From: Gammaproteobacteria bacterium
GTDB lineage: Bacteria > Pseudomonadota > Gammaproteobacteria > GCA-001735895
Direction: 5' to 3'
Assembly: GCA_024229615.1 (NCBI GenBank)
Contig: JAAESG010000112.1
Span: 1 to 33,165, forward strand
Length of the DNA: 33,165 nucleotides
Part shown: positions 5,374-27,463 of the stretch, one piece after another
How the letters are laid out: the number at the start of each line of letters is the position of its first letter
Numbering within the stretch: position 1 is the first letter of the stretch
Made by a program: the position numbers and the translations under genes
The notes under the pieces: model-generated
The model's input: the letters and a program-made list of their open reading frames with translations, nothing else
Databases searched by the model: none
Told to the model about the DNA's origin: nothing

Positions 5374-6441
5374 CTAGCTGCGTTTGTTCAGCCATTCTGA
5401 TATTGCCGGGGTTACCGTTGCTTGCGCCTTGCCGCTGACATAAATACCGATGTGACCACCGGGGAAGGACAGTTCGGTATAGTCCTTACTGCTGATCAAC
5501 TTGGGTAAAATCTTTGATGCTGCCGGTGGCACCAGGTGATCCTGCTCTGCATAGATATTTAATACCGGTAGCTTGAGGTTCTTCAGGTCGACGTCGTGTT
5601 TGCCGATCTTGAGTCCACCTTCCACGAGTTTGTTCTGCTGGAAGAAATCCTTGATAAACTGCCGGAACGCTTCGCCGGCCTGATCGGGGCTGTCGAAGAT
5701 CCATTTTTCCATGCGCATGAAGTTTTTGACGTTCTTTTCATCGCTGATGATGTCGACCATGGAAACATATTTCTGCCCCATCAACTGGAACGGTTTCAGG
5801 TTCAGAAAAGTCCAGTTGAGCATTTCTCCAGGCAAATTACCCATCGCATCGACGATTGCGTCAATGTCCATTTGTTGTACCCAGTGACTCAACATATTGT
5901 CCGGAGTCTTGCAATCTACCGGTGTCACCATGGTGACCAGGTTTTGCACCTTGTCCTGGTGCAAAGTGCTATAGCACAGGCTGAAGACACCACCCTGGCA
6001 AATGCCGAGGATATTGACCTTGTCGACACCATGGCGTTCACGCATCACGTCGACGCAGCGATCGATATAGCCGTTAATGTAGTCGTCAAGTGTCAGGTAT
6101 TTATCCGCCATATCCGGGTAGCCCCAGTCGATCAGGTAGACGTCCTGTCCGGTATCCAGCAAGCCTTTTATGGTCGATCTGTTTTCCTGGATGTCGGCCA
6201 TGTAGGGACGGTTTACCAGTGCGTAGACGATCAGTGTTGGTATTTTGTTTTGTACAACACCGGTCGATGGCTGATAGCGATACAGTGTAAGCTTATCTTC
6301 ACTGTAGATTTCCTGACGCGGGGTAACGCCAGCTGAAATTTCGTCGGCATCGAGCAGATTCTTAACGCCCTGGCTCAAATTCTGGTTGAATTGCACCAAC
6401 TCATCGACCAATTGGTCGGAACGAAACGGGATATTCGACAT
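5374..6441 (-). CDS. phaC: Class III poly(3-hydroxyalkanoate) synthase catalytic subunit
   Basis: PhaC polymerises (R)-3-hydroxyacyl-CoA on the surface of cytoplasmic PHA granules. At 355 residues it matches class III synthases, which need the partner PhaE. The alpha/beta-hydrolase triad is complete: Cys148 in the lipase-like box GICQGG, Asp301 in AEQDHLVPP and His330 in GGHIG, one residue off the Allochromatium vinosum numbering (149/302/331). It starts four bases after the phaE stop, so the subunits are translationally coupled. A short hairpin (5355-5374) overlaps its stop but lacks a U-tract. Confidence 0.96.
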   Translation of the reverse strand: MSNIPFRSDQLVDELVQFNQNLSQGVKNLLDADEISAGVTPRQEIYSEDKLTLYRYQPSTGVVQNKIPTLIVYALVNRPYMADIQENRSTIKGLLDTGQDVYLIDWGYPDMADKYLTLDDYINGYIDRCVDVMRERHGVDKVNILGICQGGVFSLCYSTLHQDKVQNLVTMVTPVDCKTPDNMLSHWVQQMDIDAIVDAMGNLPGEMLNWTFLNLKPFQLMGQKYVSMVDIISDEKNVKNFMRMEKWIFDSPDQAGEAFRQFIKDFFQQNKLVEGGLKIGKHDVDLKNLKLPVLNIYAEQDHLVPPAASKILPKLISSKDYTELSFPGGHIGIYVSGKAQATVTPAISEWLNKRS

Positions 6442-6445
6442 GATA

Positions 6446-7606
6446 TCAGGCTCCTGCTTTGGCTTTGTTTACGGCGGCTTGCTTTTTCACCACGGCGTCA
6501 GGTTTTTTCGCCGGTGCTTTCCTGGCGACAGCTTTTTTACGTGATGGGGCAGTTTTTGCTGGCGCGCGTTTGCTAGCTGGTGCGGGCTTGGTAACTGGCG
6601 TTGCTTTCGCCGCGGGTGCAGATTGGGGTTGCTTTAACATCGCCCTGATGTCCTTGATTTCATTCCTCAATTCGATATTGTCACGCCGCAGTTGCTGCAA
6701 ACGCATCTGCATGGTGTCGACTTCGCGAGTGTTCGGCAGATTCATCGCACGCAGGAAGTCGTCGGTGATTTCGCTGTAATGCTTTTTCAGAATCATCAGG
6801 CGATTGACCATGTTGCCGTAGAGCGCCTGGTACTCCTCGCTCATTGCAAACTCGGCGTAGTGCTCTTCACTGATTTCAACCCACAGGTCATAGATCTGGC
6901 GCAAGGTCTTCGGAGTCGCTTCGCCATCTATTTTTAACAGGCGGGCCTGGAAACCCTGAATCGATTCGGAGGCCACACGCAGGAAGGCCTGATTGAACTC
7001 GAAGTTAGCCTGGTGGTATTCGATGCCCAGCTGAATTCCTTTTTGTTGCTTCTCCTGGGGTTCACGGAAATAGCCAACACCCGGTGAAGACAGGATCTTG
7101 CCCATTGGGTCAATGGCTTCGCCCATGTTGAATACTGAGGTGTTCATACCTGGTAGCTGCCACGCGGCCTGGTTCATCGGAGTGAAAGCGTCGGCCATCT
7201 GTTGCCAGGACTGTGTCGGATTAAACCACTGTTTCATGAAATCACCGAAAGCGGTGCTATCAAATCCAGGTACACCGGAAAACTGCTGCATCGATTGTTT
7301 GATCTGCTCCATCCATTGGTTGACCGCTTCGACCGGGTTGGCGCCGTTGGTCATGCCCTTGCTGATTTGCTCGGCCATGGAAAAGTATTCCTTGCCCATG
7401 TCGATACATTTCTGCATTGCCTGCTGGATATCGGGTTGGGTTTGAGCTTGACAAGCCTGGCGCCAGAGTTCAAAACTTTGCGACCATAGATCAGACTGAC
7501 TGGCATTGCCGCCGGCATTACTCGATTTGGCCATATCGCTCCAGGCGCCAACGAATTGCTGTTGCGCCTTGAGCCACTGATCTGCCCAGGGATTGCTTTC
7601 GCTCAT
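6446..7606 (-). CDS. phaE: Class III PHA synthase subunit PhaE with a basic Ala/Lys/Pro tail
   Basis: PhaE is the non-catalytic partner that activates PhaC. The N terminus (MSESNPWADQWLKAQQQF), the WFNPTQSWQQM region and a C-terminal coiled segment (MQMRLQQLRRDNIELRNEI) match the family. The frame opens at GTG 7648, but ATG 7606 gives the usual PhaE N terminus and 386 residues. The last 57 residues (330-386) are an Ala/Lys/Pro tail with 16 Lys/Arg and a single acidic residue, including PAKTAP and KAPAKK. Such tails resemble histone H1 and the DNA-binding ends of PhaF and PhaM, so this PhaE may tether granules to the nucleoid (inference). Confidence 0.93.
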   Translation of the reverse strand: MSESNPWADQWLKAQQQFVGAWSDMAKSSNAGGNASQSDLWSQSFELWRQACQAQTQPDIQQAMQKCIDMGKEYFSMAEQISKGMTNGANPVEAVNQWMEQIKQSMQQFSGVPGFDSTAFGDFMKQWFNPTQSWQQMADAFTPMNQAAWQLPGMNTSVFNMGEAIDPMGKILSSPGVGYFREPQEKQQKGIQLGIEYHQANFEFNQAFLRVASESIQGFQARLLKIDGEATPKTLRQIYDLWVEISEEHYAEFAMSEEYQALYGNMVNRLMILKKHYSEITDDFLRAMNLPNTREVDTMQMRLQQLRRDNIELRNEIKDIRAMLKQPQSAPAAKATPVTKPAPASKRAPAKTAPSRKKAVARKAPAKKPDAVVKKQAAVNKAKAGA

Positions 7607-7758: not shown

Positions 7759-8505
7759 TCATGTCATATACATGCCGCCGTTAACCGGCAGGTTAGCGCC
7801 GGTCATGTAAGTGTTGCGATCGTCTGTGAGAAAACTGACCACATATGCAATTTCATCGGGCAGGGCCATACGCCCCATCGGCACTTGCTGGATAATTGAA
7901 TTGCGCACATCTTCCGGGATGGCGTCGGTCATTTCGGTTTTGACATAGCCCGGGGAAACGGAATTCACCGTTACACCCTTGGTTGCCAGTTCCTGAGCGA
8001 CCGCCTTGGTGAAACCGTGCAAGCCGGCTTTGGCGGCGGAGTAGTTAGCCTGACCATACTGACCTTTTTGTCCATTCACTGAAGAAATATTGACGATGCG
8101 TCCAAAGCCATTTTCAGACATGTTGTCGACCACCTGGCGAGTGACGTTGAACGCCGAATCGAGATTGGTGCGTAGAACCGAATCCCACTGCTCGGGCGTC
8201 ATTCTGCGCAAAGTCTTGTCACGGGTGATGCCGGCACAATTGACCAGAATGTCGACCGCGCCGATTGTATTCTCGACGTCGTGTAACATCTGTTGACTGG
8301 ATTCATAGTCACTGACATCGCAGGCGACAATTTCGAAATCATAGCCGTTGGCTCTGTGTTTTTGTTGCCAGGCGTCGGCAATTTCCTTTTCCGGTGGGAA
8401 GTATCCTGCGATCACTTTACGACCCTGATCGGCGAGAGCGATACATATCGCGGTACCGATGCCTCCGGTTCCGCCTGTGACGAGTGCTATTTTTTGTTGG
8501 CTCAT
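7759..8505 (-). CDS. phaB: Acetoacetyl-CoA reductase, NADPH-dependent SDR (second copy)
   Basis: A second PhaB-type short-chain dehydrogenase, 248 residues. TGGTGGIG lies at 10-17, and the catalytic residues are Ser142 (ISSVNGQKGQYGQ), Tyr155 and Lys159. The serine-region sequence is closer to Ralstonia PhaB than that of the first copy. The frame continues upstream to 8598, but ATG 8505 is chosen because GAGGTG lies about eight bases before it and the SDR domain starts there. It has a good promoter with two PhaR-like sites just downstream, and its own terminator. It lies between phaR and phaE-phaC, so it is probably the storage-linked copy. Confidence 0.9.
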   Translation of the reverse strand: MSQQKIALVTGGTGGIGTAICIALADQGRKVIAGYFPPEKEIADAWQQKHRANGYDFEIVACDVSDYESSQQMLHDVENTIGAVDILVNCAGITRDKTLRRMTPEQWDSVLRTNLDSAFNVTRQVVDNMSENGFGRIVNISSVNGQKGQYGQANYSAAKAGLHGFTKAVAQELATKGVTVNSVSPGYVKTEMTDAIPEDVRNSIIQQVPMGRMALPDEIAYVVSFLTDDRNTYMTGANLPVNGGMYMT

Positions 8506-8643: not shown

Positions 8644-9108
8644 TTATCGATTGTCCTTGTCGTCATTTTCAGGGCCGAGACCCATCATCTGACGCCAGGA
8701 ATCGATATTTTTCTGAGTCATATCGGTCCAGAATGCCATCGGATTATGCCGGCTCATGCCTTCTACCGCTTTGCCAAATTCGCGCTGTTGCTGCTGGAAA
8801 AAACTTAAGCCCTGACCGATAAAATCGGAAAAACCCATATGCGTGCCGGCATTGTAGAAGCGGATAAAACGTTCCAGGTTGTCATTTGAAAACAGCGGGT
8901 TGGATTCCGACTCCTGTTCGAAAATAATCTGCAGCAGGATACTGCGTGTAATGTCGTCCTGGGATTTCTTGTCAATTACGACAAAGGGTGTTTCCTCGAG
9001 CACCAGGTCGCGAATTTCCTGCAGCGTCACATACTGGCTCTTGACGGTGTCGTAAAGGCGCCGATTCGGATATTTCTTGATAATTCTGGGTTCGATCTCT
9101 TCGTTCAC
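8644..9108 (-). CDS. phaR: PHA synthesis transcriptional repressor PhaR
   Basis: PhaR represses phasin and PHA genes and is released when it binds nascent granules. The 154-residue protein has the conserved N-terminal DNA-binding domain (RIIKKYPNRRLYDT, then YVTLQEIRDLV) and the following PHB-accumulation domain (RSILLQIIFEQE, NAGTHMGFSDFIGQ). The C terminus is short and polar. Translation starts at GTG (9108), with AGGA eight bases before it. It lies just upstream of the second reductase gene on the same strand with no terminator between, and TGC-N3-GCA sites near that gene and phaE are its likely targets. No phasin gene was found in the window. Confidence 0.94.
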   Translation of the reverse strand: MNEEIEPRIIKKYPNRRLYDTVKSQYVTLQEIRDLVLEETPFVVIDKKSQDDITRSILLQIIFEQESESNPLFSNDNLERFIRFYNAGTHMGFSDFIGQGLSFFQQQQREFGKAVEGMSRHNPMAFWTDMTQKNIDSWRQMMGLGPENDDKDNR

Positions 9109-27036: not shown

Positions 27037-27040
27037 AGTG

Positions 27041-27463
27041 ATGACGGAAGAAGATAAAGTTGTAAAGAAGGCTGCGCCCAAGAAAGCTGCGACGAAGAAG
27101 GCCGCGGTAAAGAAAGCTGCGGTGAAGAAAACCGCCGCCAAGAAGGCTGCGCCCAAGGCCGAAGCCAAGGCCGTTGCTGAAAAAGCAGCGCCCAAAGTCG
27201 AAGCCAAGGCTGTTGTCGAAAAGGCAGCACCCAAGGCTGACAGCAAGCCGGCAAAAAAGACGGCAGCCAAGGCGGATTCGGGCGTCAAGAAACTGAGTGT
27301 GACCCTGGTGCGCAGTAAGCATCATCGTCTGGCATCACATAAGGCCTGTGTAGCCGGATTGGGGTTGCGTCGTATGCATCAAACTGTGCAGGTGATCGAT
27401 ACCCCGGAAAATCGTGGCATGATCAACAAGGTCCAGTATATGCTGAACGTTGAGGAAGCGTGA
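27041..27463 (+). CDS. rpmD: 50S ribosomal protein L30 with a long Lys/Ala-rich N-terminal extension
   Basis: The C-terminal 59 residues (about 82-140) are a normal L30: [31 protein letters not shown] and [12 protein letters not shown] match the family, which is usually 58-62 residues in total. The first 81 residues are an added low-complexity arm: [14 protein letters not shown] repeats, then EAKAV..EKAAPK repeats, resembling histone H1 or the AlgP/PhaF tails. No in-frame ATG lies between the arm and the L30 domain. ATG 27041 starts the arm; an adjacent GTG at 27038 is also in frame. The last codon overlaps the rplO start (TGATG). The arm may bind rRNA or DNA; its function is unknown. Confidence 0.93.

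Follow-up and report, generated by a model that had tools for sequence, protein, structure and literature searches.

A basic C-terminal tail of the class III PHA synthase subunit PhaE as a candidate nucleoid-docking module

The class III PHA synthase subunit PhaE encoded in the window (the whole 33,165-nucleotide stretch of gammaproteobacterial DNA analyzed here) ends in an Ala/Lys/Pro-rich basic tail that is located outside the synthase domain and is preceded by a PhaF-like helical stem. Judging from sequence comparisons, tethering of the synthase to the nucleoid by PhaE appears to be the best reading of these features, and one that we slightly favor. A PhaF-type module, namely, a short helical stem that probably oligomerizes followed by a disordered polycation, would extend the PhaE synthase domain, with the polycation binding nucleic acid, presumably DNA, in a sequence-nonspecific manner. 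The tail would dock the PhaEC synthase, and hence the young granule, on the nucleoid, and this docking would spread the granules along the cell and share them at division. The proposal rests on the presence of the tail beyond the synthase domain, the retention of its charge, its wide distribution, the likeness of the stem to that of PhaF, the predicted disorder, and the replacement of the tail by a helix-hairpin-helix domain in some relatives; against it stands the fact that RNA, polyphosphate or acidic proteins are also possible ligands of a polycation. The concept of such tethering is already known; what the present analysis adds is PhaE as a carrier, together with the spread of the tail, the similarity of the stem to that of PhaF, and the domain that can stand in for the tail.

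The PHA cluster is located on the minus strand of the window and consists of phaR (PHA synthesis repressor, 8644..9108; TIGR01848 over the cut-off), phaB (acetoacetyl-CoA reductase, 7759..8505; TIGR01829, 377 bits), phaE (6446..7606) and phaC (catalytic subunit of the class III synthase, 5374..6441; TIGR01836, 549 bits), all four of which pass the cut-offs of the respective NCBIfam models. The PhaE protein consists of 386 amino acids, with an ATG start at 7606 that is consistent with the starts in congeners, and matches both TIGR01834 (180.1 bits, with a curated cut-off of 154.95; 7.8e-53; residues 9-321) and PF09712 (221.5 bits, with a cut-off of 25.7; 2.1e-65; residues 10-314). The adjoining class III phaC, which starts 4 bases past the phaE stop, is in agreement with this assignment. 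The tail, residues 330-386 (6449..6619, minus strand), is outside both family model matches. The initial annotation described it as a 57-residue stretch with 16 basic residues and one acidic residue, and on recount both the coordinates and the numbers proved exact (13 K, 3 R, 1 D, no E, 19 A and 8 P). The proposed similarity to the tails of PhaF and PhaM is borne out by composition as well: the PhaE tail contains 75% A+K+R+P and carries +0.26 charge per residue, within the ranges of 71-77% and +0.19 to +0.33 found for five PhaF-type or PhaM tails. Among solved structures, PhaE yielded a single chance match (E 0.43), and no matches were found among plasmid records.

The low-confidence AlphaFold2 model of PhaE (11 sequences; mean pLDDT 52.5) is helical, the last helix (residues 293-325) being better modeled; from residue 326 to the end, secondary structure is absent and pLDDT is below 50, which predicts a disordered tail. 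High net charge by itself is not unique to the PhaE tail in a window that includes ribosomal genes: among the 92 window open reading frames of at least 100 amino acids, three contain a 57-residue stretch exceeding the net +15 of the PhaE tail, one of these being the extension of ribosomal protein L30. Chance is excluded for the PhaE tail by the comparison with relatives rather than by charge alone. The L30 protein (27038-27463, plus strand) contains a Lys/Ala-rich N-terminal extension of about 80 amino acids, with the Pfam L30 domain at residues 87-135. The long form is nearly genus-specific (128-178 amino acids in 22 of 25 same-genus loci vs 63-115 amino acids in 20 other genomes), the exceptions being two proteins of 73 amino acids (G024 and G014) and one that is cut by a contig end (G025). 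Given that L30 of the same genus has such an extension, an Ala/Lys-rich extension does not mark a protein as a granule tether.

A PF09712 match is present in 19 of the 31 same-genus genomes. Comparison of PhaE C-termini, which the initial annotation suggested as a check, revealed a basic tail after the PhaE domain in all 18 readable congeners, including the Olavius algarvensis Gamma 3 endosymbiont (L038; same protein as L023). These tails are 31-134 amino acids long, with a net charge of +10 to +26 and 0-4 acidic residues. The 19th congener (G002) was left out of this reading because its PhaE match is weak and interrupted by internal stops; this weak phaE match (L026; G002:C101:2387-2767) contains two in-frame TGA codons, and a phasin gene is retained in the same genome.

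In the class-wide draw, PF09712 matches were found in 66 of 370 genomes. One PhaE C-terminus per genome was scored by the best net charge over 30 residues past the domain, with a strong tail defined as +7 or more (a threshold chosen here) and a weak one as +4 to +6; by this measure, 38 of the 66 C-termini have a strong tail, 7 a weak one and 19 fall below or have no tail, and the remaining two end in a helix-hairpin-helix domain. For the 45 canonical PhaE proteins (domain end reached, and E <1e-55 with a model built in this analysis), the corresponding numbers are 31, 5, 7 and 2, and the 31 strongly tailed proteins come from 19 of 24 families (hand count). Among control C-termini from the window and its relatives, 7 of 109 reach +7, with some of the control frames perhaps not being genes. 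Thus, the basic tail is not peculiar to the window genome but is widespread; given that 7 of the 45 canonical proteins lack it and another 5 have only a weak one, it is not essential to the enzyme. In family f105 (L099/G244, L100/G139 and L102/G392), a conserved (M/V)IE(L/I)KF peptide follows the Lys-rich tail of PhaE.

Both the sequence and the length of the tail drift among PhaE relatives, with the positive charge being kept. The mean identity among congeners is 0.35 in the tail vs 0.72 for the preceding 180 amino acids, and the only invariant tail positions in an 11-sequence alignment are K357, G385 and A386. Aspartate and glutamate account for 14 of the 334 tail residues in the classes D, E, N, Q, T, S, G and V, that is, 4.2% vs the 19% expected from one-base codon neighbors. 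Across 17 close pairs (of 153), the one-base differences in the tail include no K/E exchanges (7.4 expected) and 23 K/R exchanges (8.3 expected), and D or E is involved in 8 of 135 exchanges, all of them A/E, vs the expected 12% (about 16); these counts come from related, non-independent pairs that share ancestry and are indicative only. With this qualification, the substitution pattern is such as selection on charge, not on sequence, would give.

The end of the tail is conserved for a different, probably translational reason. The last phaE codons, GCA GGA GCC TGA, contain AGGAG (6451..6455, minus strand), the probable Shine-Dalgarno sequence of phaC, 9 bases before the phaC ATG, so that G385 and A386 of PhaE lie inside the phaC ribosome-binding site. 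In 17 of 18 congener sequences, the last phaE codons include GGAGC ahead of the stop, with the phaC ATG a few bases downstream; in the remaining sequence, L017, the phaE stop and the apparent phaC ATG overlap (by eye). Because GGAGC is kept before the phaC ATG, the conserved AGA/KGA end is probably the phaC ribosome-binding site. We rejected this end as a protein motif, given that AGA is read from GCA GGA GCC, the codons that hold AGGAG.

Immediately upstream of the tail, residues 283-325 (6632..6760, minus strand) form a putative PhaF/PhaI-like stem that consists of an NLPN motif and a coiled-coil-like helix. Comparison of the profile of 62 PhaE C-terminal regions with that of 10 PhaF/PhaI proteins using hhalign yielded a probability of 93.7% (E 1.9e-7, 48 columns) vs 1.2% for the reversed family and 0.29% for the best of 50 column shuffles, all scored on family profiles and not on the window PhaE alone. 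A leucine/proline pattern is common to both stems (LNLPTR in PhaE and LxVPSR in PhaF/PhaI). Furthermore, PF05597, the model of PhaF/PhaI phasins, weakly matches the C-terminal part of PhaE in 8 genomes (G183, G278, G241, G050, G254, G195, G011 and G024), with the matches ending at profile position 120-125, close to the end of the model. Given the hhalign match of the pre-tail helix to the stem of PhaF/PhaI, PhaE appears to end in a PhaF-like stem and tail, so that PhaE and PhaF would have these two elements in the same order and differ in the front half. Coiled coils might have converged, but convergence would not readily explain a proline motif at a fixed distance. The PhaM core was also considered as a relative of the PhaE stem, but no similarity was found (hhalign 2.6%).

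In some relatives, the place of the tail is taken by a helix-hairpin-helix domain. The PhaE protein of G075, in family f41, ends in HHH_5 (3e-8, over the cut-off), and the C-terminal domain of the PhaE of G404, from the same family, aligns with it; in G404, phaE is flanked by frames that read by eye as thiolase and phaC, in the order thiolase-phaE-phaC. A helix-hairpin-helix end is also found in a divergent PhaE-like protein of g3, a sister genus in the family of the window genome (L091/G032 and L025/G035); here, Pfam alone remains below the cut-off, and the assignment comes from a full-length alignment with the f41 domain. The 5.5 kb read around the G032 locus contain frames reading as phaB, phasin and phaR, and no phaC was found within them, so that the g3 protein may be no synthase subunit; possibly, it is a PhaH-like phasin derived from PhaE. 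In the window PhaE, PF09712 is the only Pfam match, and no helix-hairpin-helix domain was found.

The initial annotation further noted that the window lacks a phasin gene and took this as an argument for a granule link through PhaE. The observation holds for the window, but the genome encodes two Phasin_2 proteins on other contigs (C232 and C174), and at least one phasin was detected in 18 of the 19 PhaE-bearing congeners and in 65 of the 66 genomes with PhaE in the class-wide draw, so that the argument fails and absence of phasins was rejected as a reason for the tail. None of 49 phasins from 42 genomes reaches +7 in the last 30 residues, the highest value being +6 (this reading leaves out G063, G332, G397 and further copies in several genomes). 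PhaF-type phasins (PF05597 over the cut-off, outside PhaE) are present in 6 of the 66 genomes with PhaE; of the other 304, 9 have one, three of these only by summing pieces in one frame. PhaM was found in none of the 66 PhaE genomes and in 2 of all 370 (the NF043076 model matches in G128 and G234, and therefore works). Because tailed phasins, PhaM and PhaF are rare or absent, PhaE is the polycation-carrying granule protein in most of the genomes examined. A pattern of mutual exclusion between the PhaE tail and PhaF or PhaM was not found in the comparison of the 66 PhaE genomes with the 304 others. Neither was compensation seen among 9 phasins from 6 of the 7 genomes in which canonical PhaE lacks a tail, as none of these phasins carries a strong one instead, the seventh genome, G063, being outside this reading. 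In phasins of another family (L142/G341, L147/G163 and L148/G262), a long stretch rich in Lys and Ala is located N-terminally instead of C-terminally.

As summarized in the available text of a 2025 review (PMC13052382), PhaM, PhaF and PhaH bind the granule through the N-terminus and DNA, unspecifically, through the C-terminus, which is histone-like in PhaM and PhaF and a helix-hairpin-helix in PhaH. Pseudomonas PhaF has been modeled as a PHA-binding helix, a leucine zipper and a disordered DNA-binding tail (available text of PMC3574117). In PhaF as in PhaE, a helical stem with a leucine-zipper-like end precedes a disordered A/K/P tail, whereas the front part is a PHA-binding phasin helix in PhaF and a class III synthase subunit domain in PhaE. 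By the hhalign match of the family profiles given above, PhaE has the stem in common with PhaF, and by composition, the window PhaE has an A/K/P-rich basic tail like the histone H1-like tail of PhaF; PF05597, the phasin domain of PhaF, matches nothing encoded in the window genome. Congeners such as L004 contain the exact AAKP motif, which the window PhaE tail lacks (by eye). PhaM of Cupriavidus/Ralstonia, a granule protein in contact with the synthase, resembles PhaE in its Lys/Ala/Pro C-terminus and attaches granules through the lysines of PAKKA motifs (PMC9049629, available text). The core model NF043076 has no match in the window genome; the PhaE tail fits in its basic composition and contains PAKKP once and no exact PAKKA (by eye).

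A parallel among synthase polypeptides is PhaC2 of Cobetia, with a basic histone-like (AAKP/HC2-like) C-terminus for which a role as nucleoid anchor replacing PhaM has been speculated, and in the same source, a nuclease-type H3TH domain is noted in the related PhaC2 of Halomonas (PMC8686332, available text). In contrast to PhaE, the Cobetia tail is attached to a class I catalytic subunit. A helix-hairpin-helix domain is noted in Haloferax PhaC as well, in a 2025 paper where, in its available text, the role of PhaE beyond its need for activity is called unclear (PMC12028471). The helix-hairpin-helix ends of Caulobacter PhaH and Haloferax PhaC correspond to the alternative module in the f41 PhaE and the g3 PhaE-like protein, in contrast to the window PhaE, which is without this domain. 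Our literature search, with subscription journals mostly outside its range, found no report on a basic tail or a helix-hairpin-helix of PhaE.

Polycations are unspecific, and so the tail might bind another polyanion or partner, such as RNA, ribosomes, polyphosphate, acidic phasins or PhaC, and tune the assembly of the synthase or its activity, not its position on the nucleoid. The Ala/Lys-rich extension of L30 in the same genus and the histone-like AlgP protein, which acts on polyphosphate granules (PMC13052382, available text), are compatible with such a role; the PhaF-like stem and the replacement by a helix-hairpin-helix domain both point to DNA, and we regard a non-DNA partner as rather unlikely. 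Alternatively, the tail could be a low-complexity expansion of little function, with its end held only by the phaC ribosome-binding site, as might be suggested by the wide range of lengths (31-134 residues), the repeat-like units, the three sole invariants among 11 relatives, two of them within the phaC site, and the absent or weak tail in 12 of 45 canonical PhaE. An expansion of this kind would hardly account for the depletion of acidic residues and K/E exchanges or for the recurrence of the same charge in unlike sequences from 19 of 24 families, which makes this explanation improbable.

PhaF has also been reported to affect the transcription of phaC1 and phaIF (PMC9049629, available text), and by analogy, PhaE might regulate the transcription of pha genes through its tail. 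The presence of a dedicated repressor gene, phaR, in the same cluster argues against this, as does the Pfam search of PhaE, which found no sequence-specific DNA-binding family, and we consider such a function highly unlikely.

Beyond the docking of the window synthase that we favor, a more general and tentative possibility, less probable in our estimate, is that the PhaE C-terminus serves class III synthases as a nucleoid-docking port, in which the stem shared with PhaF would take either a histone H1-like tail or a helix-hairpin-helix module. In these bacteria, attaching the granules to the chromosome would then be the task of the synthase rather than of a phasin or PhaM, starting with the first polymerization step. 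In PhaE, the C-terminus accommodates two unrelated DNA-binding-like modules, and the conserved end of the protein can be set apart from the ribosome-binding site that probably explains it. A docking module in PhaE would let class III producers, which are here mostly without PhaM and PhaF, place their granules and share them at division.
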